Shown in pieces: positions 5,264 through 46,593 of a DNA stretch of 64,000 bases (position 1 is the stretch's first letter; each line of letters opens with the position of its first letter). A program made the translations under genes and the position numbers. The notes beneath the pieces were generated by a model. The model saw only the letters and a list, made by a program, of their open reading frames with translations, was not told the DNA's origin and did not search any database. The DNA comes from Yamagishiella unicocca (taxonomy: Eukaryota > Chlorophyta > Chlorophyceae > Chlamydomonadales > Volvocaceae), in NCBI GenBank assembly GCA_003116995.1, contig BDSL01000006.1, forward strand, positions 62,001 through 126,000, given 5' to 3'.

Positions 5264-7301
5264 ATCAGGGTGTGTGGGGGGGGAGGTACGGCAAGGACCT
5301 GGATGATAGGGTGCAGTCCAGCAAAGTATGAAAACGAGACATTCGTGGCGACGGCGTCGGTTGACTAGGGTTTAGCCGGGCCGCAGCAAGCAGCCATGTT
5401 TAGATTGGCCGCGGCAAGCAATCAACGTTCATTGCAGGTATTGCTGCAGGTTTCATCTCCGGCCGTGCCCGCTGCAAGCACTGCGACTCGGTTGGAGTCG
5501 AGGCTCATGCATTTCCCAGTTTGTGCACTAGTTGCATTGTTATGGCGTCCTGACAGTCCGCGCACAGGCTCGCGGTCCAACGGCCAGAGCTCTGCTTGTG
5601 CTATCCGGCGGCGGGTGGAGTTGGATTGACTGTTTGGCTTTGGACGTTCACGGAGCACTATTGGCGTTTCGAGCTTTCGACTCGTAAGCCGCGCAGCATC
5701 GCGCGTGAGAGTTGCTTGGGGCTGCTTGGGGTTGGTTTGATTGGCTTCACACAGCAATACTGCCGCAGTTCCATAGGGGTCGCTTCGGGTCGCGGCATCC
5801 GGTTCGGTCGGAATTGGTGGTGTTGGTCGACGTCACGGAGCTGGTTGATGGGCGCCAACCAAAGCAACTGCTGGAATGGGGCTGATCGATGTCTCGACCG
5901 AGTCTTGCACATAGATTCACCGTAGCCCTGAGCTCGCAAGTCCCCGAAGTGGATACCCATTGAGCCACAGTTGCGGGTATATGCGTACGCTATATTCTGC
6001 AAAAAGCATCGCGCTTCCATACTCCCATGGTAGCTACCGGTATACCTTGGCGTGCGTAGCCAGTCTGCCTGCCTTGAATGACTTGTGGCCGACGCCCTGA
6101 TCCGTAACGGCGCTTGTTCTACGGCACTGTGTTCAGGGGGCCAGAAATGGTCATCCGGATAGCCACGCGTTCCACATGTGCGTCCCCAAGCTCATACGCT
6201 CGGAAACCTGGCGCGGCAACTGGACACCAATATCAATTTACCTGAACGTATTGATTTCTGAATGTGGTGCATACAGCTTCACGCTATTTCGCAGGGGTTA
6301 AGGAAATGCCGGAACGCGGGTGCTAGTCTCACTTAGAAGAAGTAGTGAACACAATCATTCATAGACTGTTACAGAGTACTCATACATGAAGAAGGAAACT
6401 GCACGAAGAGACTGTCCAGGTGGCCACCTGCAGCTTCCTTCGATTAGGCCTTGCCCGTGGTGGTTCTGTACTACACTAGGCAAGCCTAAGTGCTAAAGTG
6501 CATAAGCCTTGCGCGTCGTGCAATGTAGAATGCCACTGCTAGCTAGAAGCAAAATACGCCTTGTGTCATTTCGAGGCGAATGGGCGTTCCCGGTGTTGCC
6601 AACCCCATTGGTACTGGAGGTATCTTCTGAACAACGAAGCACGCGCAAATACTCTAAAAGGTATCCTTGCTGCAATGGAGGTAACCAATGAGCGTCCTGG
6701 AACCATGGGAAGACCACTTTTAAGTTGCCGCCCTTGCGGCGTAAAAAGTTAACGAAGGGAGGAGATTCATAAGAGCCCTGAGGTTCCATAGCACTAACCA
6801 ATGCAAACGAGCGCATGCGGCCGCTCCCGCATTGGCGCACTCAGCCGCGCTCTCCAACCTGCCCACTTTTGGGCACCACCCGCTCCCATCCACTGACCTC
6901 CCTACGCTACCGCCCTCCGCAACTAAGCCTGCGCGACGGCCACAATACGACACAACACCGCCGTCACATCCCTCGACGGGTGGCGCCATACAAAAATAAC
7001 AGATACCGGCTGGCGTCACAGCAGGCACAGGCTGGCGTCCCAATTCACCGCTGCACCACACAGCAGCCGACAGCGCCCTTAGCCCCGCCCTTCTTTCCTC
7101 ACACTACGCCAGTCCACCGTGGCAAGCTGTGTAGGGGCCGCGGAGTAGTTTTAAAGCAAGATGCACGAAAATCCGTGGGGCTGCTGCGGGATCCGGCACA
7201 GAGGTTCCGGCACACAAGCGTGCATGCATGGAACCTACTTTGCAACCAGCGGCCCCCACATCATGCCCTAGCTACTGCGCGTACATGCGCCCTCTTACGC
7301 C
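5264..7301. other. Intergenic, no supported gene
   Basis: Short open frames occur on both strands (for example 5658-6020 and 6493-6840, minus), but none shows a recognisable domain, a consistent splice chain or coding-like composition. It probably contains the 5' end and promoter of the vWA gene and the 3' flank of the acyl-CoA synthetase gene. Confidence 0.5.
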
Positions 7302-10300
7302 TCACGCCTGCTCCAGTTCCTCGTACATGGCCTTCACCTCCCGCTTGAAGTGCCGCTCCAGTGCCGGCCGCCGCAGCTTGAGTGTAGGCGTCAGCAGGCC
7401 GTTATCGGGCGTGAAGGGCTCGGGCTGTAGGTACACCGCCCGGATCAGCTCGAAGCCGCGCAGTTTATTGGCGCGGCCGACCTCCTGGAAGGGCAGCGTA
7501 CACACGCGTGCTTGCCACACGAATAAATACAGCCTAGGTGGAGATCGGTTTAAAAACATGGTTGTTTAGCACGCGGGAGAACTCAAGGCGAGCCGGAGGC
7601 GGGGGAGGGAGGGGCAGCGAGACGAGGTGAAGGGGCGGAAGTTGGGCGGTCGACGGACTAGGGCCCCGCCGCGAGGTATCTATCTAAAGAGTGTGGCGAG
7701 AACGAAGGAAAGTGTTTTTGCCGGCCTTGGGGTCAAGGGGAAGGAAAGGGGCATCACGGCGCCGGGCACCGGGACTGCCACCACGCACATGCGGCTGCAC
7801 CGCAACGCACCCCCACCCACCCCGCAACCGCCGTCGTCTCGCCGTAGCCGCTTTAGCTTAGCCGCCAAAGGTCATATTACGACCTTCGGCTTTAGTATCC
7901 CCAACCCAGTTCTCCAGCATGCATATCAAAACGTCTGTTCTATACGGTTGTTTTCGGGCATCCACGGGTCTTTCTCGAAACCCCCCCTGCAACCGGATCA
8001 TAACGTTAAGCGCACCTGCAGCTGCTGCAGCACTGTGGCACGAACCTTGGGCGAGCGGCATAACGTGCCCACCACCGTGGGAGCGTCATGACCCGCTGCC
8101 TGCGCTGCCTCCCCGGGACCCGACGCCTCCTCCTGGCCGGCCCCGGCATCACCCTCGGGCCCCGCGGGCGCCGCAGCGACGGATGAATCCTGCTGGTGAT
8201 GATGGTGGCGGTGGTGGTGGAGATGCTGGCGCTGCTTGTGCGACGGCGAGGAGGGCGGCGATGGCGCTATGATCTCGACCTGGCCCGCCAGCGGCAGCAG
8301 CTTGTTGCGGTGGGGCACCACCACCGCGACCAGGCTGTTCTTGACGCTGCTGCCGTGAACCCAGATCTGCTCCACCACGGGCGTCTCGCCGTACACCGCC
8401 TCCAGCCGCTCGGGGCTAATGTACTCGCCTGAAACAAAGGAACGGATTATTAGGGATGCGTGACAGGCAGGCTAGGGGGCATACGCAGGACGAGGATGGC
8501 CGGCCGGTGTGGGTCGTAGCAGTCCCGCACAGATAGACGAGAAATGACCTACCTTGGCTCAGCTTGAACATATTTTTGATGCGGTCCACGATGGCAACGC
8601 TGCCGTCGGGCCGGAGCGCCGCGATGTCTCCCGTGCAGAACCAGCGGCCGGTGCGGGGGTCGTCGCTGCTGCTGGCCGCATCACCGGACCCCGCGCCCTC
8701 GCTCGGGCCCCCGGCTGCAGCTGCTGTGGGCGCTCCGTTCCCCGGGTCGGGAATGAGCGCCTCCTGGGTGAGGTCGGGGCGCCGGTAGTAGCCTGCACGC
8801 GTGTGTGTATATGCGGTTTGTGGGGGCGGCTATGTCGGCGGGAGGGATCAAGATGTGGCGGCTCGAGGTTACCCCGCCCTCCAGTAGGACCTGCTGGCGT
8901 GTAGCCCCACGATTACCCAGCAGCCCCGACCCGACGCGCCCGCGCACGCACCCGACCCCACCCGCCGGGGCACCAGCCATTCATCCAGCCTTAAGCTATC
9001 CACAAATCCGTTCTGAGAAGAAGCCCCTGCACTGCCCGCGGCCCTCTTGGCCCAATGTAACGCGGTCCAGTTGACTTCACACACTCGGTAGCCCCCGCCC
9101 CGCGGCCCCCTAGCGCCCCCGCCCGCCCGCTAACTGGTTTTCCTGGCCGGCTGGCTGGTTCGACGCGCGCCCCTACGTTCTTAAGGGAAGGACCTTTGCG
9201 TACGTACCTGTGAAAAGCTGCGGTCCGCGTATAAGCAGCTCTCCCGCCGGCAGATCACAGTGCTCACCGCCGCCCCCGGCAAGGTAGCCCATGTCCGGGA
9301 CGGAGCGCAGCCGGAACTCCGTGCAGAGCAGCGGGGGCCCCACTGACCCTGTGCGGCAGCCGTACAAGGGAGCAGGGGAGTGTTTTTTTTATCTGCAACG
9401 TGCGGACTCTCCTTCCAAGGGACACGGGACTTAAATGCCCATCACACACCGTAGCCTGCATCCGAAAACCCCGCGAGTTTTTCCTCTAGCCGAAAATGCA
9501 CTCCGGCTCTCATGCTTGCAGTGATGAAATACCCTCACGCCCCATGCGAGCCCACCCAAATGCTTGACCCCAACACGAAAACATCAGCCTATCCACTGTC
9601 CGAGTCTTCTTGACAAGTGATGCAGGGACTCCGGCCATCCGCACCTTTCAAGCGGAAGGAGCCTCTTTCGCAACTTTTTACAAGCAGAAGCAGCCTCTTT
9701 TGCACGCTCTCAAGCGAAAGCAGCGTCGTTCACGCCCTTTTACAGCGGAAGAAGCCTCTTCCGTTCCGTCCGCAACCTTTCACGCCACTTTCACGTACGC
9801 CCTGGCAGTGGTCACTATAGTATGAAGCACTTCGCACTCGTTGTCACCAAGCACTAGTGGTATAGAGGTAGCATAGGTCCTTGCCACGGACCAGACCCGA
9901 GTTCGATTCTCGGCTAGTGCATCGGGGTCGTAGCTCAAATGGTAGAGCGCCCGCTTAGCAGCGCCGCATGAAATGCGGGAGGTAGGGGGATCGATGCCCT
10001 CCGACTCCATTTTGCCGTATGTGGCAAGATTTGTTCTTGCGGATGTAACAATTGCTGAAACGTCCCAGGCGACTGCTGTAAGATGGCACTTTCGCCTCCC
10101 CAGCCAAAGCCCACCTTACCAACTTGCTCCCAGCAGAATGGCTCCTGCATGAAGGACGCTGCACACGTCTCCGTCAGGCCATAGCCCTGCGCCACCGGGC
10201 AGCCCAAGGTGACACGAAGGAATTCCTCGACGCGACCAGCCAGCGGGGCACCCCCGCTCACGACCAACCTGCGTAGTGTTTGGGAGCAAGGGGGAGTGGG

Positions 10301-35558: not shown

Positions 35559-38500
35559 CTAATGAGGGGCTTCGGCCCACACCAAGAAAGGGGTTTCGTC
35601 GGACGCCGAGGATTTTTTTTTTTTTTTTCCTCCCTCGAGAGAGAGACCAAGGAGGCCAGAACGCATAGCAGCAGGGAGGGTGGTGCCGGAGAGCCGATGA
35701 GAGTGTATGTACCGGCGCGCCCACTCCATCGCGTTGAGCGCCGCCAACGCCACCACATCCCACACACACTGCAGCACAGTGGTCGGATCCGGCGACACAC
35801 ACAACCACACATGCTCACGCGTGACCCCGCACCCACAGCAGACTTCCAGTTCATCCCAGAGCGGGCGGACGAGGGGGCAAGACCAAAAGTGATGCAAGCG
35901 CGGCGACTCGGCCACACCCGCTGCAGCGGGGTAACAGCCGCAAGCACACGGTTCGGGTGGGACCAGCGGGAGGTGAGAGGAGCCCGGCATGGGCACCCCG
36001 TCAACCGCCAGCCGCCAGAGGACCTCCTTCCACCGCGGCTCCCACTTAAGACGCTTCCACAACCGCCGCCATACCGCGCGTAACGCCACAAGGGCCGCCT
36101 CGGGCGTGGCAGCCACAGCAGGGGACAGCCCGAGCGCCTCCCGCACATACGCCGCATGACAGGCCTGCCTGGGGCGCTCCAGTTCCGCCGCCTGGAGCAG
36201 GGTGCCCAGCTTGACGGTGAAGGAGGTGAGGGGCAGCACGGCGTCCACACCCAGCCGCCACCCCAGGCGAGCAAGGAGGAGAGCATCCACCTCGTCAGGC
36301 GACGGCGGGGCGGGGCCATCGGGCGCCAGGCGAGCAGCAGCGAGCCATGCGGGCGAGATGTCAGAAAGGAGAGCGGCCACCGCAGCCCGCGCCGCGATGC
36401 GATCTTGGAGCGCACCCATGGCCAGCTCGGAGGGCGCCAGCTCGTGCCGTACGAGCGTCGTCCAGCGCTCAGCCAGCCGGCTGAAGATGGCCATGCCCGG
36501 CGTCGTCGCCAGGGCATGGGCGCGCTCCACCTCAAACGCGGTCATAGCGTCCTGCACCCGGACGGCGTCGCCGACGGTCAGCAGGCGGCGGCACATGGTG
36601 AGGGGGCCATGGATAGCCTCCAACCCCGGCCGCCGGCCCGGCGCCCCCGCGTTGGGCAGGAGCGGGTTGCCCCACAGCGGCGCGTTGAAGCACCAGACGC
36701 CCGGCTCCAGGGGGGGGTCCGCGACGTCAGACAGGGGGGGGAGGTGACCGAGGCTCGTGGCAAGCCGGTGGATGTCCGGGGGCAAGCTTAAGGGGGCGCC
36801 GAGCCACGGGCCATCCGGGCGAGCTGTGGTGACGGCCAGCGGGCGGAAGGCAGGGTGGAGGGTAGAGAGGAAGGAGACCGCAATCCGGATCCACGGCGCG
36901 CGGGCAGCCGGGGGCTGCAGCGCGGAGCGGGCGACCGTCAGGCTCCACTTGGCATGCCGGCTGAGGACATGCAGCCGAAGGGGCAGTACACCGAAGCCGC
37001 CGATGGTGGGATGACCGGAGAGCAGGCGGAGGGGGACACCAGTGAAACGGCGCTGGGCGTCATCAGGGCCTAGCTCCCGATCCACCAGCTTTGCGACAAG
37101 GGCCATGAGGCCAGCAAGGACCTCCGCCGGCGGCAGCCCCGAGTGCTCCATGTGGTACGTCGCCATATGGAGAGCATAAGCTGCAGCCGCAGTGGCACGG
37201 CCGAACATCGACAGGGCCATGCGGGAGATCTTTTGGAGACGGCGGCGGGCCTCCGACATCCGTGACGCCCAATCGAGGACGGGGGCGGCAGGCGGATTGG
37301 TGAAGGGGATGCCCAGCGCCACCGCAGCGGGCACGATCCGAAGGCCAGCGAGGGCAGGGGGCGGGGGAGAAGGGGAGGGGCGAGGCACCCCGGGAGCGGT
37401 GGCGGCAAGGGACGGCGACGTGGAGGGACCCGGGGCGGCCAGGGCGCCAGCGGCTGCGGCGAGGGCGCCCACGACCACGACAGCTGCAGCACCGCGGCCA
37501 CGACGCCGACGACCGCGGCGAGCCAGCCCTGGTGGGCGCGCCAGGCGAGGCGGGTGACGGGCGACGGGGGAGCTGGCGGCGCCAGCAGGGGCGGCTGGGG
37601 CGGCTGGAGCGGCTGGGGCGGCCGGGGCAGTGGGGGCGGCAGTGACGGCCGCGACGGCTGGGGCGTCAGGAGGCGTGGGAGACGCTGCGGCGGCGCCAGC
37701 GGCGGCCGGGACTGCGGTCGTCAGCACCGTGGGGGCCGCGGCACCCGCGGCCGCCCCAGGAGCACCACCGGCGGCAGCCGGACCGGCGGTCGCCAGCGCC
37801 TCGGCGGCCACTGCGACCAGGACGGCAGCCGCCGGCGCCACGGCAGCCGCGGCGGCCGGGGCGGCAGCCGCCTGCGGGGCAGCAGCAGCGGCGGCCAGGG
37901 CGGCAGCCACCGGCGCAGCGGCAGCAGCGGCGGCGGCCGGGTCGTCAGGAGGTACGGCGGCGGCGCCAGCGCCTGCCGGGGCGGCCTCCACCGGCGCCTC
38001 GGCAGCAGCGGCGCTCGGGGCGGCGGGTGAAGCGGCGGCACCGCCCGCAGCGGTCCACGCGGCGGCAGGGGCGGCGACGGCCGCCACCGCAGCGGCAAGG
38101 ACGGCAGCCGGGGCGGCGAGCGCCGGCGCCACCTGGCGACCAGCCCACAGCAGCTCGACCTTGGAGGGATTCAGGTGCTGGCCAGAGGCACGGGCAAACG
38201 CGGCCATGAGGGCGATAAATGGCGGTACTGCAGCTGCATCTGGGAGCGCGACTTGGGCATCATCAGCAAACTGCACGCCGGTAACCAGGCTGGCCGGGTC
38301 CGCCGGGGCCAGCGGCACGCCAACACCGTGCCGCTTCAGCCAGCAGAGGAGGGCGTGGGCCACGAAGAGGTATAGGAGCGGGGCAAGGGGACAGCCCTGC
38401 CGGACGCCGGCCCGGATAGGGACAGAGCGGGAGATGTAGCCGTTGACGGACGCCATGGCCACTGTACGGCCCAACAGGAGCTGCGTCCATCCCAGGAAAC

Positions 38501-40829
38501 CGGCCCCAACACCCATGCGCTCCATGACAGCAAAGAGGAAGGAGCGGTCAATGGTGTCGTAAGCTTTGGCGAAATCCAAGAAGGCGATAAGAGCACTCCG
38601 TTGCTGCTGGTGTAGGAGGGGGGGGAGGCAGCGAAGGAAGCGGGTGTTGGCGCCAATGGAGCGGCCGGGGAGGAAGGCGGACTGCTCGAGGGGGATGGCG
38701 GCGGAAAGGCCAGGGCTGAGGCGGTTTGCGAGGACCTTCGCCAGAATGCGGTAATCAGTACAGAGCAGGGTGATGGGGCGGTAGGCGCCGGCCGCCGCCC
38801 GGTCCGCATCATGGCCCTTGTAAATGACGGATATAACACCCTTCAGGAAACCCGTCGGGACGGCGCGCAGATGGCCGATAGCAGTGAAAAGGCGGGCCAG
38901 TGCCGGCACAAAGCAGCCACTGTAGGTCCGGAGGAGATCCACAGGGATTCCGTCCCAGCCTGGGGACGTGCCAGGCTTGGCTTGCTGCAGGGCCCGCGCC
39001 ACCTCCGCTGCTGAGACTGCGATGGAGCCCAACTCGGGGCGAAGATCGGGCGAGATCGGAGTAGAGTGGGCGTCGACAGCTGCCAGAACCGCTTGCTGAT
39101 CCGCCGAGTCCAGGCCTGACGGCAGGCAGCTGATGCGCTCCCAGAAAGAAGCGACGACATTGGGCAATTGGCGCGGGTCGGTCACGAGGCGCCCAGCAGC
39201 GTCGCGCAGCGCGGTAATGTCCTGGGACGACCGCGGTGGGTGAATCATGGCGGTGAGTGCGGGGCACGGGCGCTCCCCCTCGCGCACCCACGCCACGCGT
39301 ACCCGGGCGGCCTCGCCCGCCGCCGCCACACGCAAGGCCACCGCCAAGGCAGCCTGGGCGGCCACCACACCACCCACGGCCTCGGGCGCCGCCGACGGCG
39401 TCGCGGCCGCAAGGTGGGCCGCCCGCAAGGCGGCTCGGGCTGCCTCCACCTGCGCGCCCGAGGCCAGGCGCCGAGAGCGAGCGGTGCGATTGAGAATCGC
39501 CGCCACCGCCGCCAGCCGCCGTTTGAAGCCCGGCCACCACGCCAGCAGGGCAGCGTGCTCCCCCTCAGCCGGCATGGCCGCGAACGCCGCGTCGAGCCAG
39601 GCCTGCAGCTGATCCTTGAGGTCGCGGTGGCCAGAGAAGGCCATGCGGGTGCGACGGAGGCCGGGGCCGCGCGAGGCAGGAACCCGGGGCAGCAGCTGGA
39701 TGCAGGGGACGCGGTGGTCGGAAGGCGAGCCCAGCTCAATGGCGGAGCCCGCCACGAAGGGGAGGAGGCAGCGGGACACATAGATGCGGTCGATGCGGGA
39801 ACCACCGGGGGAGGGGGCGGAGTAGAGGTGGGTGTAATCCGTGCTGGTGGGGAAGCGCTCACGATGCACATCAGCCAACGACGGGCCCACTGTCGCGAGG
39901 ACCCGAGCGGCAGGGCGGTCGCGAACCACTCGCGCCGACCCCGCACTGCTGTCCCACGGGCCAGCGACGAAGTTGAAGTCGCCGGCTAGGACATGCTGGC
40001 CCGGGGTGCTGGTCGCCAGCACAGGCGCCAGGTGCTGCTGGAGGAAAGCAGCGCGTGAAGCCGAGCTACTAGCGGGCAGATAAACATTGGTGAGGTGCAG
40101 GCGATGACCCAGCCAGGTGAAGGAGTAGGTGGCGAGGCGCCCCGCTGCGGAGGAGGACGCGGCCGGGACCGCCGGAGGCTGGTCAGCCGCGGCCAGGCCG
40201 GCCCCTTCCAGGGCCGCCGCGGCGGGGGGAGGCGCAGCGGCGTCCCCACCACGGGGCGCCGTGGCGGCCGAGGCTACCGCCGCCGCCGTGGCCGCCACGG
40301 CCGCGGCCGCGGCGGCCGCCGCCACCGAGGCCGCCACCCCCGAGGCCGCCGCCACGGACACGGCGGCGGCGGAGGGACCCGCGTCGGCGGCCGGCCCAGG
40401 GGACGGTGAGCGGGGCGGCGGTGACAGGGAACGAGAGGGGGGGGAGGAAGCAGCAACTGCAGGTTGATCACCCGCGAGACCAGGGAGCAGTGGTGAGGCC
40501 GCTGCCACCAGCCGGCCAGAAGCGATCAGGTCCGAGCGAACGAGAATCGCCACGCCAGCACAGGGGTCCGCCAGCGTAGCATTGCGGAACGACACCACAC
40601 GCCAGGGAGCGACATGGAGGTGACCAGCGGCCGCATGGAGACGCCGCTCGAATAGCCCCCGATCTCCAAACGTAGACAAGTGCGTCTCCTGGATACAGAC
40701 GACATCGAGCCGGAGCTGCGCCCACAGCAGTAGAGCAGCAAAAAACTCCCTAAAAAAATTCCTTGCGTTACAGGACCCCGACGCTGGGGTACGACACCTG
40801 ACCGTGTCATAAGCTCTGTATCTCCACCC
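35559..40829 (-). CDS. LINE ORF2-like polyprotein: endonuclease, reverse transcriptase, zinc finger
   Basis: One frame stays open from about 40829 to 35559, over 1,700 codons. It opens inside an adjacent SINE, without an ATG near the start. Apurinic-type endonuclease motifs: LDVVCIQETHLS, LAGDFNFV and SPSDHRVP. The usual first strand with Trp-Asn is missing. Reverse transcriptase runs from about KGVISVIYKGHDADR to KVELLWAGRQ, with FLDFAKAYDTIDRS (motif A), IRAGVRQGCPLAPLLY and the catalytic FADD at about 38262-38273. A 250-300 residue Ala/Pro-rich linker follows. The C-terminus has the reverse-transcriptase zinc-binding pattern CACGC...HHFWSCPLVRPLW. The last codons run into the A-rich tail (five Lys), so the true stop is unclear. 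L1-like clade by domain order. Confidence 0.93.
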   Translation of the reverse strand, partial: GWRYRAYDTVRCRTPASGSCNARNFFREFFAALLLWAQLRLDVVCIQETHLSTFGDRGLFERRLHAAAGHLHVAPWRVVSFRNATLADPCAGVAILVRSDLIASGRLVAAASPLLPGLAGDQPAVAASSPPSRSLSPPPRSPSPGPAADAGPSAAAVSVAAASGVAASVAAAAAAAAVAATAAAVASAATAPRGGDAAAPPPAAAALEGAGLAAADQPPAVPAASSSAAGRLATYSFTWLGHRLHLTNVYLPASSSASRAAFLQQHLAPVLATSTPGQHVLAGDFNFVAGPWDSSAGSARVVRDRPAARVLATVGPSLADVHRERFPTSTDYTHLYSAPSPGGSRIDRIYVSRCLLPFVAGSAIELGSPSDHRVPCIQLLPRVPASRGPGLRRTRMAFSGHRDLKDQLQAWLDAAFAAMPAEGEHAALLAWWPGFKRRLAAVAAILNRTARSRRLASGAQVEAARAALRAAHLAAATPSAAPEAVGGVVAAQAALAVALRVAAAGEAARVRVAWVREGERPCPALTAMIHPPRSSQDITALRDAAGRLVTDPRQLPNVVASFWERISCLPSGLDSADQQAVLAAVDAHSTPISPDLRPELGSIAVSAAEVARALQQAKPGTSPGWDGIPVDLLRTYSGCFVPALARLFTAIGHLRAVPTGFLKGVISVIYKGHDADRAAAGAYRPITLLCTDYRILAKVLANRLSPGLSAAIPLEQSAFLPGRSIGANTRFLRCLPPLLHQQQRSALIAFLDFAKAYDTIDRSFLFAVMERMGVGAGFLGWTQLLLGRTVAMASVNGYISRSVPIRAGVRQGCPLAPLLYLFVAHALLCWLKRHGVGVPLAPADPASLVTGVQFADDAQVALPDAAAVPPFIALMAAFARASGQHLNPSKVELLWAGRQVAPALAAPAAVLAAAVAAVAAPAAAWTAAGGAAASPAAPSAAAAEAPVEAAPAGAGAAAVPPDDPAAAAAAAAPVAAALAAAAAAPQAAAAPAAAAAVAPAAAVLVAVAAEALATAGPAAAGGAPGAAAGAAAPTVLTTAVPAAAGAAAASPTPPDAPAVAAVTAAPTAPAAPAAPAAPAAPAGAASSPVARHPPRLARPPGLARRGRRRRGRGAAAVVVVGALAAAAGALAAPGPSTSPSLAATAPGVPRPSPSPPPPALAGLRIVPAAVALGIPFTNPPAAPVLDWASRMSEARRRLQKISRMALSMFGRATAAAAYALHMATYHMEHSGLPPAEVLAGLMALVAKLVDRELGPDDAQRRFTGVPLRLLSGHPTIGGFGVLPLRLHVLSRHAKWSLTVARSALQPPAARAPWIRIAVSFLSTLHPAFRPLAVTTARPDGPWLGAPLSLPPDIHRLATSLGHLPPLSDVADPPLEPGVWCFNAPLWGNPLLPNAGAPGRRPGLEAIHGPLTMCRRLLTVGDAVRVQDAMTAFEVERAHALATTPGMAIFSRLAERWTTLVRHELAPSELAMGALQDRIAARAAVAALLSDISPAWLAAARLAPDGPAPPSPDEVDALLLARLGWRLGVDAVLPLTSFTVKLGTLLQAAELERPRQACHAAYVREALGLSPAVAATPEAALVALRAVWRRLWKRLKWEPRWKEVLWRLAVDGVPMPGSSHLPLVPPEPCACGCYPAAAGVAESPRLHHFWSCPLVRPLWDELEVCCGCGVTREHVWLCVSPDPTTVLQCVWDVVALAALNAMEWARRYIHSHRLSGTTLPAAMRSGLLGLSLEGGKKKKKSSASDETPFLVWAEAPH
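35612..40760 (-). mobile_element. LINE (L1-like) with A-rich 3' tail
   Basis: The 3' end is marked on the minus strand by an A run (T run at about 35612-35630 on the plus strand). The 5' boundary is taken as the junction with the SINE at about 40754-40760. No disabling stop or frameshift occurs through 5 kb, which suggests a recent insertion, although the front of the endonuclease is missing. Flanking target-site duplications were not found by eye. Confidence 0.85.
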
Positions 40830-41258: not shown

Positions 41259-41490
41259 ACCCATACCCACCCCATCGGGCAGCCTTGCGCTCTGCATCAG
41301 TAGCGATGCCAATGCCATTTTGCCATGCAGCTGCGCAGCGCCTGCGCAGCGCCGCTATGCACCTGCGCGAAAAAGCGAGAGATCGCCGGTTCGAAACCCG
41401 GCGGCCGCAATTTTTGCATTTCGCGCGCAGATGCAAAATATAGCGCGATAGCGATAGCCAATGCCTGATAGCGATAGCGAATACAGCACC

Positions 41491-41882
41491 CAACAGGGCG
41501 CGCGTCCAGCGGACACACAGTGCCAGCGCCCGCCCACATTTAATAATTCAAATTTCAAACAGCTGCTGCTTGCCACCTTGTAGCACCCGCCAGCAGCCGC
41601 CCACTGTGCCAATTGAAACCATTCCTTTTGCAACGCGCTCTAAATGAATGGCCGCATAACCTATCAGCATCAGAGCGCCCACCAGGCACGCGCCCAGCTG
41701 ACCACTAGCACATGCAACACAGTGCCAGCAGCCGCACACTGAGGTCATTCATGCCATTCCTTTTCCAATGCACTGTAAATGAATAGCCGCACAGGGCGCG
41801 CCAACAAATAGCCAGCAGGGCGCGCGTCCAGCGGACACACAGTGCCAGCGCCCGCCCACATTTAATAATTCAAATTGCAAGA
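41491..41882. repeat. Direct repeats upstream of the AT-rich ubiquitin-like ORF
   Basis: A block of about 75 bp, beginning AGGGCGCGCGTCCAGCGGAC and running through TTTAATAATTCAAATT, occurs at about 41491 and about 41815. A second pair (GCCATTCCTTTTGCAACGCG and a diverged copy) occurs at about 41622 and 41753. The arrangement resembles subterminal repeats of a DNA element, or a local duplication. Confidence 0.75.
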
Positions 41883-41982
41883 TTTGGAACAGCTGCTCGT
41901 TGTACTGCATGAAAGCAACCCGCATGCCACATAATAATAGCTCACATTGAAAACTTCAGATTTCGAAATTTGCAACAAAGCG

Positions 41983-42780
41983 ATGAAACAACGGTCAAAG
42001 AGTCATAACAAGTCATATGCCCAAAGAATATGCACTGTCCTACTAGCTATTGCAACCATCCTAATAATCGGATATGCATACAACCAGACTACTCTCACAG
42101 ATACAACCCATACATTAGGCAACCTTAAGCCACCATTGGGCCGTCACTTCTGGGCAGCTTCACATTGGCGCAAATACTATCACTTCCGACCACGACAATG
42201 GCTTCTAACAAAAAATCAACTGGGCGAACTATGCTTATACTGCGCAACAGCATTGGCTGCTTACATCCAACATTACACTTCCATATACCGAATTTGGCTA
42301 TACAGAGTCGGTAAAACCCTCCTCGCAATAACATACCTTTATTACAATCCTACACTCCAAGCATATTACTCTCTTTTGTCCTTATTAGCAGCAGAACTGA
42401 CGCACAGCTGTGTGCAGAAACAAACAAGCTGGATCCAGCTATGGGTACACGGCCTCCATCATATTACACATCTCATCTCGATGGATGCTAACACATCTAC
42501 ACGCACTCTAATGGAATATATCAGCACTGTGGAGCGAATCCCACAACAACACCTCCGACTAGTATTTCACGGTCGACGGATCCAGCTCACACGCAGTATG
42601 CAGTACTATAATATACAAGACGGAGACAGTATTTTCGTTACAAGCATATTACGTGGCGGAATGCAGCCCAAACGTAAGCCAGCATTCTCCGAATCCACAT
42701 CACCTGGCGCTGGTCCTTCTACTCACACAGAGCTAACCATCGAAGGAATATGGCACGTCCTTTATCAGCACCCTCATCTT
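41983..42780 (+). CDS. AT-rich ORF with a transmembrane segment and a full-length, lysine-free ubiquitin-like domain
   Basis: First ATG at 41983 (the frame opens a little upstream at a TTG). The N-terminus has a basic stretch, then a hydrophobic segment (ICTVLLAIATILIIGYAY), then a Tyr/His/Leu-rich region. DNA 42433-42660 encodes exactly 76 residues that align without gaps to ubiquitin. Identical positions include Q2, V5, L8, T12, I30, I36, P37, R42, L43, F45, G47, R54, Y59 to Q62 and L73-R74-G75-G76. None of the seven ubiquitin lysines is present (H6, I11, M27, Y29, V33, R48, D63). Residues after the di-glycine (MQPKRKPAF...) would be released by a deubiquitinase-type cut. The A/T-rich codon use differs sharply from neighbouring genes. 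The end is uncertain: helicase-like sequence continues in another frame. Confidence 0.7.
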
Positions 42781-43729
42781 CTGCAGCTCTTACCTCTTCC
42801 CAACACTCGGGCTCGGCCATGGCACGAGCTTGCCGGCCGGAGCTCCCATCGGTCGCGCTCCTTCCCGAGCCGTACGTGGTTCTGCTTCGCCACGCCGTAC
42901 GCCTCCCGCTGCTGCAGCGCCTCCTACCCCTCCATGCTGAAACACGCGGCCAGCAGCTCCTGGTCTGGCGCAGCAGTGACTTCGAGCCCGATGGCACGCC
43001 GCTGCCCCCCGCCCTGTACCAGCAGCTAGAAGCACTCGGCGGCCCCGAAGATGATGGCGGCTTCCCCACGATCGGCGCCTTCTTCGCGGGGATACGCTAC
43101 ATCTTCACCACCAATGCGCACCCCACCATCCAGCACATCCACAACAACTGCGCCACCGGCACTGGCATCGTGCTCCACCCCGCTGAACCCCCCATCCCCC
43201 CCCGGATACAGCGCCCATCCACGTGCTCACCTACATGCCGCGCGCGGTGTTCGTGATCCCCGACGGCCGCCCTCTCGGTCGGATCTCGCGCATACCCGAG
43301 GTCGCCGAAGATGAGATCGCCGTCCTTCCTAAGGCACACGCCTTCACTCCTCTGCATGCCGTCGATCGCCGCTCCATCCACCGCTGGGGCTTTCCGCTGG
43401 ACCTGGCGTACGCCGTCACAGACTACTTCGCGGAAGGCACGTCCTTCAGAGGCCAGAACTGGCTCGCGCACCTGTGCAGGCCCCCCGACGGCCGCCTGCA
43501 CCGTGCATCACTGTACGTCATCCCCACCCGCTTCAGCTCGCTCGACGACTTCCACTTACTGTGTCCGCTGTGGCCGCCCGGAGATGACGCAGAGAAGGAC
43601 CGCGTGCTGCAGAACCTCCTTCGCCTCGCGCAGCCCGTACCGGACCTCAAGGCGGAATGGCAGCGCCTCCTTGACTTAGCGCAACTCACCCGCCTCCACC
43701 TCCAGGACCTCCACCAGGCGCTCTTGTAA
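42750..43729 (+). pseudogene. Pif1-like (SF1) helicase C-terminal fragment, frame-broken
   Basis: Two frames carry one continuous domain. The first, to about 43200, has FFAGIRYIFTTNAHPTIQHI followed by NNCATGTGIVL, which matches the Pif1 region where a GxRVMLxxN...NGxxG segment lies. The second, from about 43205, has GFPLDLAYAVTDYFAEG where motif V would be, and ASLYVIPTRFSSLDDF where motif VI would be. It ends at the TAA 43727-43729. The frames switch at a C-rich tract (43189-43203), which suggests a small indel or a sequencing error. Walker A and B motifs are absent, so this is only the C-terminal third of such a helicase. GC-rich, unlike the preceding ORF. It could be a separate exon of the same gene. 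Confidence 0.6.
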
Positions 43730-44371
43730 CCCCGGACCTGCAAACAGTATTGCCGCCACAGTGCCAAGTGCAGCGCTAGTGACAAATGCCAAGCAGTCCG
43801 TGAAGTCCCTCAGGGTGACATGTAACAAACGGACTCCCATCTCCCTCCCGCGCGCATGCTCCGCACGGCCTTATTCGATTGCACTCGCGCCTCCCTTCCA
43901 GCGCTTCCGCAGTTGCCAATATTTTTTATTCGCCTAGTTATTACGATTGCACTCGAAACCGGCGCATTCTCGCATTCCCTGCTCCCAGCTCACAAGTCAC
44001 TTTCCCACGCCCGCTCCATCCGCCCGAAGCTTCACGCAATCCGCTACTATTTTATACGCGACTCTCCGCCTCACCTCCTGATCGGCCAAACGACCTCGCG
44101 CCTGCCTTCTCCAGCATACCAGTACCCGCCGCACTCGCACGTGCCTTCCAGCGCTTCTACATTTGGCAATATTTTTTATTTGCCTACTGACGACCACTGC
44201 GCTTGAAACCGGCGCATTCTCACACTCTGTGCGCATTCTCGCACCCTCCCTAGATTTCACATAGCCACATATAAAGTGCTGCCCAAGCAATCAATCGTAT
44301 ATTTTCACATAGCCACATACAACAATCTTATATTTTCACAATGGCACCGAAGGAATCTGCCCCTGCTCACA
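43730..44371. repeat. Spacer with a duplicated block
   Basis: A block CCTTCCAGCGCTTC...CAATATTTTTTATT...GCCT occurs at about 43893-43940 and about 44147-44185, followed each time by GAAACCGGCGCATTCTC. Near 44265-44335 a short block (TTTCACATAGCCACATA) repeats. No open frame is supported. Confidence 0.6.
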
Positions 44372-45182
44372 GGAGCTAAAGGAAGAAGCGACCAACGAAA
44401 GCGCTCACTTACAATGTTTTCGTCCAGGACGGTCACACTGGTGTTTGCTCCGTTGGTGAGCGTCGCTGTGCTGGCGGTGTTAAAACTGCGCGAGCGCTGG
44501 ATGTCGCCAGCCGTCCGCCAGTTGACGAAGTTGAGGAGCTTTCCACGGTTAGCGTAAAGGAAGTCATCCAGCTGGGTCGCAGCAGGACGGCTGGGATAGA
44601 CCATGATGGTGAGAATCGTGTCTTCGTCCATATGGACAAAGCCCTTGCTGCCGGGCAGGTTGGAGGCGCCGATTGGCATGTACGAGAGTAGGCGGCCCTG
44701 TATGTGAGCGTCTCGTGAAGTAGTTTTGCTGGTGCTGACGTTTGTCCCGCGCGTCTACTGGAGCAGCAACCACCAGCCAAACGTCCTGAGCTGCCCGCTA
44801 CTCGTAGCAAAAACGTCAGCACCAGCAAAACTACCTCACGAGACGCTCACATACAGGGCCGCCTACTCTCGTACATGCCAATCGGCGCCTCCAACCTGCC
44901 CGGCAGCAAGGGCTTTGTCCATATGGACGAAGACACGATTCTCACCATCATGGTCTATCCCAGCCGTCCTGCTGCGACCCAGCTGGATGACTTCCTTTAC
45001 GCTAACCGTGGAAAGCTCCTCAACTTCGTCAACTGGCGGACGGCTGGCGACATCCAGCGCTCGCGCAGTTTTAACACCGCCAGCACAGCGACGCTCACCA
45101 ACGGAGCAAACACCAGTGTGACCGTCCTGGACGAAAACATTGTAAGTGAGCGCTTTCGTTGGTCGCTTCTTCCTTTAGCTCC
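44372..45182. repeat. 372-bp inverted repeat (near-perfect) with 67-bp spacer
   Basis: The arms 44372-44743 and 44811-45182 are reverse complements of equal length; I see at most a few mismatches (one near 44719/44835). The arms include exon 1 of the zinc-ribbon gene and the first 41 bp of its intron 1, so the copying happened at DNA level. The structure would fold into a very long hairpin. Confidence 0.93.
44378..44679 (-). pseudogene. Inverted duplicate of exon 1 of the zinc-ribbon gene
   Basis: The minus strand encodes the same residues from MPIGASNLPGSKGF to TSVTVLDENI as 44875-45141, then runs into what is intron in the other copy. No downstream exons follow on this strand. It is a partial copy created with the inverted repeat. 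Confidence 0.85.
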
Positions 45183-46593
45183 TTCCACACTTTCTCACTC
45201 TCTTGCTCTCGCAGGTCTTTCCTCCCTTCAATGCCAGGAGCGAGCACCTTACAGCTGCCACCAGCAACACCCTCTTTGCAATCGATATGATTGCTCTGCC
45301 ACATGCCGCGCTCGATCCCGCGATACCTTCTGACATCGCCGAGGCACAACTGGCGACCTCCTTTGTATTCGCGGCTGCTCAAGATCGGCATGTATCTGTT
45401 GTCAACACCGGACAGCTACAGGTATGTATACAGATATATGGGCTATATGAGGGGGCGCCGCTGTATGAGCTATATGGGCTATGTGGCCTATGTGGGCTAT
45501 ATGGGCTATATGGGCTATGTGGGCTAGATGGGCTATGTGGGCTATGTGGGCTATATGAGCTATATGGGCTATATGGGCTATGTGGGCTATGTGGGCTATG
45601 GGGCTCGCGCAATATGCTACATTTGACAGCTCTCACCCACTCACGCTACCCCTGTTTCATTCCAGCTGCGCTTTGACGACATGGCACCCGGGCAAGTCAC
45701 CGCGCTCCGACAACTGCTCGGCTCTGCACGCATCACACAGCGTGCATTGGGCGTCATCGACGCCACCCGACTGCCATCACCATCCGCCGACCGCCTGCTG
45801 GCAACACGCAATACCACGGGAATCACCACCATCCCCTCAACGTGCGACGCTCTGCCGGCAAGCCTCCTGGTCGCTCATGCTGGCCCTCCCGTGACCGCAT
45901 CTCTCCGCGGCATCTTCGTGCCAGAAGCCACGCACCCTCTCGCCAAGCAGTAAGTACGGCCGTCCGTCTGTCCGTCCGTCCGCCGCAGCTCAGAACACCG
46001 CTGCAACTTGTCCGTCCGTCCGTCCGTCCGTCTGGCACGCGCCTCGCGCCACTATTTGCCCTCACTGTCATCACACCAATATTTACTGACGGCCCATCCA
46101 CAACGCTTTGGCACACCGGAACTTGTCCGTCCATCCGTCCGTCCGTCCGTCTCAGACGCGCATCGCGCCACTATTTGCCCTCACTGTCATCACACCAATA
46201 TTTACTGACGCAGCATACCAACGCCATCACAACATCCTGCACCATCCATCACTTTACAAACACTTCGTTCCCCTTGCCTGCCCCACCAGATGCACCGAGT
46301 GCGGCACCGTCTTGCCGCTCACCGCAGAAAGCTCCTGCACTGAGCCTCGGTGTGCTCAGATACCTCCAACGTTCGCAGTCTTCGGCAACTTCTACACCGC
46401 AGCTGCTGCCTGGGAAACCGCGCCAGTACTACTGACTGACCCAGCCACCCTCACGCATGTCTTCAACATCCCAACCATGGCCACATTGACCACAACGCAG
46501 CTGCAACAGCAATCCACTGCAGTGCACACACTACACGGCACCTTTGACATCGCCGATGGAGTTATTGTTAACATTGCTGAGGGCGTTGCGTAG
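44875..46593 (+). CDS. Four-exon protein with a zinc ribbon, possibly RPA-like ssDNA-binding
   Basis: Exons 44875-45141, 45215-45421, 45666-45949 and 46290-46593 join in frame to about 353 residues with standard GT-AG introns. I do not recognise the N-terminal half (VHMDEDTILTIMVYPSR, SVTVLDENI). Exon 4 starts with a four-cysteine cluster (CTECGTVLPLTAESSC, then C five residues on), followed by beta-strand-like sequence. A zinc ribbon before a small beta-barrel recalls the C-terminal domain of replication protein A large subunits, and RPA-like proteins are carried by some Helitron-type elements; that link is inference. The frame upstream of the ATG is open into the hairpin spacer, so the start could lie earlier. 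Introns 2 and 3 are filled with simple repeats. Confidence 0.65.
45425..45605. repeat. 9-bp minisatellite in an intron
   Basis: About 20 copies of GGGCTATRT (CTATATGGG / CTATGTGGG) fill intron 2 of the zinc-ribbon gene. The run is open in one frame (Gly-Leu-Tyr-Gly-Leu-Cys), but lies between a clear donor (45422) and acceptor (45665). Confidence 0.9.
45958..46211. repeat. CCGT microsatellite and a 118-bp tandem duplication in an intron
   Basis: Intron 3 of the zinc-ribbon gene starts with (CCGT)n. A block beginning CTTGTCCGTCCGT and ending CACCAATATTTACTGACG occurs at about 46006-46093 and again at about 46124-46211. Confidence 0.85.

Follow-up and report, generated by a model that had tools for sequence, protein, structure and literature searches.

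A deleted Helitron copy and its larger relatives

The window analysed here is a 64,000-nucleotide stretch of Yamagishiella unicocca contig BDSL01000006.1 (positions 62,001-126,000; C6:62001-126000) within a 133-Mb assembly. On its plus strand, short repeats that are mostly common to the flanks of other copies (41322..41880) precede the 5' segment of a Helitron copy (41912..42833), which comprises the leader and the start of exon 1 and is 95.3-95.6% identical at the DNA level to three copies at C108 and to the C636 copy at 5771-9568. We take the ATG at 41983 to be the likeliest start codon because a stop lies just ahead of it in the C108 copies. The head from this ATG to 42432 (41983..42432) contains a hydrophobic segment (residues 16-34, 42028-42084; mean hydropathy 2.0), which had been noted in the first-pass annotation and was recovered here, followed by a basic Tyr/Trp-rich stretch, as judged from hydropathy and composition. 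The 150 residues preceding the next feature include 15 Y, 7 H, 8 K, 8 R, 1 D and 2 E. That feature is a 76-residue ubiquitin-like domain (UBL, 42433..42660), and its last four residues with the following Met (Leu-Arg-Gly-Gly-Met, 42649..42663) form a predicted cleavage site after Gly76.

The 5' and 3' parts of the element are joined at 42834..42843, where BLAST breakpoints relative to larger copies and an array spacing of ~10.2 kb indicate that ~8 kb of the full element is missing. The window ORF leaves the frame of the element past the join near 42834. The 3' end of the helicase part follows in two reading frames (42844..43729; frames 42750-43256 and 43223-43729), of which 42844-43468 is 97% identical in DNA to one C636 copy and two C108 copies; its 109-residue helicase end matches other copies. 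Beyond it lies a 3' flank common to the C164 Helitron copy (43730..44360; 95.4% identity across window 43400-44360). The GC content per 100 bp is 0.39-0.52 over 41901-42800 compared to 0.62-0.69 over 42801-43700. In BLAST comparisons, window 41912-42833 corresponded to the 5' end and 42844-43468 to the 3' end of the larger copies. As the window copy matches only these two ends, we conclude that it lacks the middle of the element and is an internally deleted Helitron derivative that kept the head and the helicase end.

A look for homologous ORFs elsewhere in the genome identified heads at C108, C636 and C164. Three head copies at C108 are 10,201 and 10,206 bases apart, two at C636 are 10,109 bases apart as measured between LRGGM sites, and C164 has one complete and one partial head copy. 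The three C108 copies, the two C636 copies and one C164 copy, each ~10 kb, are referred to as the six larger copies; C636 is possibly an alternative assembly of the C108 array, such that these are not six independent events. The three units at C108:89400-120800 (L009-L013) form a head-to-tail array with a spacing of ~10.2 kb, and two of them lack the 3' end. Because the 109-residue helicase end is reduced to 24 residues in those two units, and also at the C636 junction seen, we conclude that these are copies in head-to-tail order that are truncated at the 3' end.

All six larger copies contain, in order, LRGGM, CSCCSRRF (CxCC), HTHGCIW, DYALKY (YxxKY) and GKPGTGKS (Walker A). HTHGCIW and DYALKY, which we take to be the HUH and two-Tyr motifs of Rep, together with the matches of the larger copies to Helitron_like_N (PF14214, E 1.3e-11) and DUF6570 (PF20209, E about 1e-17), identify the element as a Helitron, and the helicase downstream of Rep is 44-56% identical to Gonium and Pleodorina Helitron proteins. 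From this arrangement of motifs we conclude that the UBL lies in the head of a Helitron. Aligned 3' flanks of the copies gave no exact element end of the kinds sought (Helitron 3' CTRR plus hairpin or Helitron2 asymmetric repeats). The first-pass annotation had placed the domain next to helicase and zinc-ribbon sequences. A helicase piece does follow it, as the 3' end of the same element, but the zinc ribbon was not found in the window copy; the CxCC motif of full copies is in exon 2, within the stretch that is absent here.

The C5 Helitron copy is 5'-truncated and was set aside as uninformative about heads. A viral origin was set aside as well, as no relative turned up when viral contigs were scanned twice. 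Other Helitron families of the genome were also considered as UBL carriers: at least 66 ubiquitin-family matches were found, seven of them in this family and none beside other Helitron_like_N or DUF6570 matches. A search with P0006, a related sequence from ENA, revealed no further head by other Helitrons among the matches listed, which leaves room for a very diverged UBL.

P0006 has an open frame of 344 residues in which the helicase end follows the head with nothing of the body between them; LRGG-Met is kept, and the join is different from that of the window copy. A splice origin of this join is unlikely, as no AG was seen by eye before the matching helicase site in the window. P0018 contains the first 84 residues of the same head fused to sequence resembling window 45046-45147 (51% over 35 residues). 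Both sequences may derive from genomic DNA or from transcripts. P0007 was rejected as a Helitron head because it is a polyubiquitin. That the body was lost repeatedly while the head and some downstream sequence stayed is consistent with non-autonomous Helitron derivatives.

The sequence around the window copy holds additional features. A LINE-type element lies just upstream, where a long minus-strand ORF (35559-40679) encodes a reverse transcriptase domain (RVT_1, E 7.6e-26) and an endonuclease domain. Downstream, a palindrome at 44371-45183 consists of two ~0.4-kb arms that are 95% alike, each with an ORF starting MPIGASN, and a plus-strand ORF of repeated Gly/Leu/Tyr/Cys-rich units (LYGLCGLCGLYG-like; 45203-45676) resembles a coding tandem repeat. 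The plus-strand MPIGASN ORF of the palindrome had no match in Pfam. An MPIGASN ORF is also present ~0.8 kb downstream of the Helitron helicase ends at C5 and C8. Because it lies near these helicase ends and a similar piece is fused to the head in P0018, the MPIGASN ORF may belong to some of these Helitrons as a second component.

Identity and conservation of the ubiquitin-like domain

The first-pass annotation had described 42433-42660 (residues 163-238 in the frame from 41947) as 76 residues that align to ubiquitin without a gap and end in LRGG. This description was exact, with 21 of 76 residues identical. Pfam agreed with the assignment (PF00240, E 2.8e-9; 37 bits versus a cut-off of 25.4), and the local alignment score to ubiquitin was 87, whereas 500 shuffled versions of the protein scored at most 44 (0/500 at 87). 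Ubiquitins were also the best matches among solved structures, with top scores from repeated chains and single ubiquitins near E 3e-4. Identity of the UBL to ubiquitin was 28-32% across the sequences compared. L8 is kept, the I44 position is Val or Leu, Thr replaces V70, and residue 72 is Ile or Leu instead of Arg in all three head lineages. LRGG, with Met after it, is present in the window, C108, C164 and P0006 sequences, and LRGG-Met is retained in three head lineages. Although only 21 of 76 residues match ubiquitin overall, the last four match completely (4/4; P 0.005).

All seven ubiquitin lysines are replaced (by H, I, M, Y, V, R and D at positions 6, 11, 27, 29, 33, 48 and 63), as had been reported from the first reading of the sequence. 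Lys is scarce in the whole exon-1 product (14/582 residues), and the chance of finding none in 76 residues is 0.16. As 129 of the 507 76-mers of this product are Lys-free, the loss is unremarkable and was ruled out as a special adaptation. Arg72 of ubiquitin, which we take to be important for activation by the ubiquitin E1, presumably also contacts several deubiquitinases. With none of the seven lysines at homologous sites (0/7) and Ile or Leu at residue 72, the UBL lacks both the chain-forming lysines and the Arg72 of a ubiquitin modifier, and conjugation is disfavoured because of residue 72. The proposal that the domain could be conjugated or cleaved at its C-terminus is thus retained for cleavage, with which the Pfam match, the kept LRGG and the dN/dS value are consistent, but not for conjugation. 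The related idea that the protein caps or blocks ubiquitin chains was not supported, given the rarity of Lys throughout the exon product, a lysine at position 38 of the P0006 UBL, and the replacement of Arg72 in three head lineages; we consider it weaker than cleavage by a deubiquitinase.

Within exon 1, comparison of the C108 and C164 copies yielded a dN/dS of 0.46 for the head before the UBL, 0.17 for the UBL itself (dS 0.47), 0.21 for the next 100 codons and 0.27 for the remainder. The corresponding value for the Rep core was 0.12 (dS 0.071). The UBL region has 32 nucleotide differences in 77 codons, which cause 11 amino-acid changes compared to a neutral expectation of 21.5. The minimum in 5000 neutral simulations was 13 changes, and none (0/5000) was as low as the observed 11. 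Because dN/dS is 0.17 and the amino-acid changes fall below those of the neutral simulations, we conclude from these comparisons that the UBL is under purifying selection and is kept as a protein. Taken together, the alignments and substitution patterns support a genuine, selected ubiquitin-like domain.

Predicted joining of the head to the Rep-helicase body

The last in-frame residues of exon 1, ...ALLQEK or ...ALLHEK, are followed by a GT donor. A predicted intron 1 (77-89 bases, AG acceptor) separates exon 1 from exon 2, and a predicted intron 2 (75-77 bases) separates exon 2 from the DUF6570 exon. GT-AG was found at both predicted introns in all six larger copies; as the second donor (GTAAGG) and the exon-edge letters were built into the search pattern, this result is a confirmation of the sites in each copy, not their discovery. 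By eye, both introns are less conserved than the flanking exons. The short joined frame that was tested is open in three of the six copies (two C108, one C164) and broken in the other three, and one of the two open-frame C108 copies has a frameshift within the head. Independently, a single gene model, that of the annotated Chlamydomonas reinhardtii Helitron protein P0010, combines Rep and the exon-2 region with a region that resembles the C-terminus of exon 1 (27% identity across 113 residues; E 3e-4 when the two sequences were compared alone). Splicing of exon 1 to the body is what these features would imply, and we predict that the head and body constitute one gene, with the head as the N-terminus of the transposition protein.

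Silent divergence of exon 1 is ~7-fold that of the Rep core (dS about 0.5 versus 0.07; L019 and L010-L011), with a near-identical patch just past the UBL (dS 0.085). This difference suggests that heads and bodies have separate histories via recombination or gene conversion. P0006 agrees, its head being 53-54% identical to the whole heads described here and its helicase tail 93-94%.

A predicted release step and comparison with known systems

Our preferred reading, to which we assign a probability of about one half (0.52), is that the Helitron head is the N-terminus of the transposition protein, with an anchor and a UBL, and that a host deubiquitinase cut after LRGG frees the Rep-helicase. The transposition protein would be made with a hydrophobic leader, which probably anchors the head in a membrane, followed by the UBL ending in LRGG-Met; a host deubiquitinase would cut after Gly76, and the cut would release a Met-initiated Rep-helicase body from the tethered leader. 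We liken this leader to a ubiquitin-fusion precursor because a hydrophobic segment, a Gly-Gly-ended UBL and a Met follow one another, and it is from sequence that we infer membrane anchoring, cleavage and the use of cleavage as a release step. Points against cleavage are Ile or Leu at residue 72, Thr at residue 70 and the topology, as three of the four sequences examined have a weak second hydrophobic segment (1.04-1.35 versus 1.69 in P0006), which makes placement of the UBL in the cytosol uncertain. The joined-protein reading is opposed by the exon 1-3 frame being broken in 3/6 copies; the head could alternatively be a short protein that reads into intron 1. As a tentative extension, which we doubt more than we favour, release could act as a switch in which RepHel is tethered and host deubiquitinases license transposition, with swappable heads evolving apart from a near-constant Rep-helicase body.

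An uncleaved UBL that stays on the Helitron protein as a docking module, binds the proteasome, p97 or UBA-type host proteins and sets turnover or location is an unlikely alternative, yet the strongest of those considered. Selection on the UBL would suit any folded binding role, and L8 and the Val or Leu at the I44 position are in keeping with it. However, V70 is Thr, and LRGG-Met is kept in three lineages, with LRGG conserved beyond expectation; to our knowledge, non-processed UBLs usually lack a terminal LRGG-Met. Less probable still is that exon 1, through the intron-1 stop or in deleted copies, is a separate small gene for a membrane-tethered UBL protein that works in trans by mimicking ubiquitin or capping chains. 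In two translated copies, the exon-1 frame does stop in intron 1 ~20 residues past the predicted donor, and the deleted window copy and P0006 keep the whole head, but the GT-AG introns in 6/6 copies, the in-frame continuation in 3/6, the joined P0010 gene model, the loss of Arg72 and the ordinary nature of the Lys loss argue against it. That the UBL is a captured ubiquitin fragment drifting without function is very improbable: GC is lower in exon 1 (0.468) than in the body (0.679 for the Rep ORF), one C108 head is frameshifted, and Helitrons capture host gene pieces (PMC6431247), but the selection test already contradicts drift, with a UBL dN/dS near that of the Rep core and no neutral simulation as low.

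Ubiquitin fusions (polyubiquitin, ubiquitin-S27a and -L40, and algal fusions, PMC6332867) share with the head a ubiquitin fold with Gly-Gly right before the next unit, and in polyubiquitin Met follows Gly-Gly as it does here. The head differs from them in that its domain is only 28-32% identical to ubiquitin, lacks the canonical lysines and Arg72, and is part of a transposon, where it follows a hydrophobic leader. Pestivirus polyproteins contain inserted, near-perfect host ubiquitin, and host ubiquitin hydrolases process the precursor. The common theme would be a genetic parasite using host ubiquitin hydrolases; here, the domain is diverged, the element is a DNA transposon and cleavage is predicted.

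Ten listed proteins share 41-63% identity with the Rep region, and nine of these are assigned to Gonium, Chlamydomonas or Pleodorina (P0008-P0013, P0015-P0017). Algal Helitrons of these genera have the same DUF6570, Rep and helicase order where gene models contain them. In contrast to the UBL head described here, a precomputed ubiquitin domain is present in 0/10 of the listed proteins (P0014 included) and 0/5 by Pfam scan; P0010 has an Ala/Gly-rich N-terminus instead, and gene models may miss an upstream exon. Helitron2 has been described in Chlamydomonas, and ubiquitin is absent from the main text of that paper (PMC3627910). Additional Helitron domains named in PMC6431247 are RPA, OTU and AP endonuclease. 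Our literature search, which most subscription papers fell outside, found no description of a UBL in a Helitron. The UBL-bearing head is apparently new; Helitrons and ubiquitin-pathway modules in rolling-circle transposons were already known.

In eight ORFs of two copies, a set that does not include some exons, such as the Walker A exon, no Pfam match at E up to 1 was found to AP endonuclease or to an OTU or VTD deubiquitinase, the latter as far as Pfam models it. Helentrons of animals that contain an OTU or VTD deubiquitinase domain are likewise rolling-circle transposons with ubiquitin-pathway modules; some encode active deubiquitinases, for which a role in transposition has so far only been guessed at (PMC9741609). 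Whereas those Helentrons carry a ubiquitin-cutting enzyme, the element described here carries a substrate-like domain. A selected, Gly-Gly-ended UBL in a Helitron would thus be the mirror image of the deubiquitinase-encoding Helentrons, and suggests that ubiquitin processing belongs to how rolling-circle transposons control their protein.
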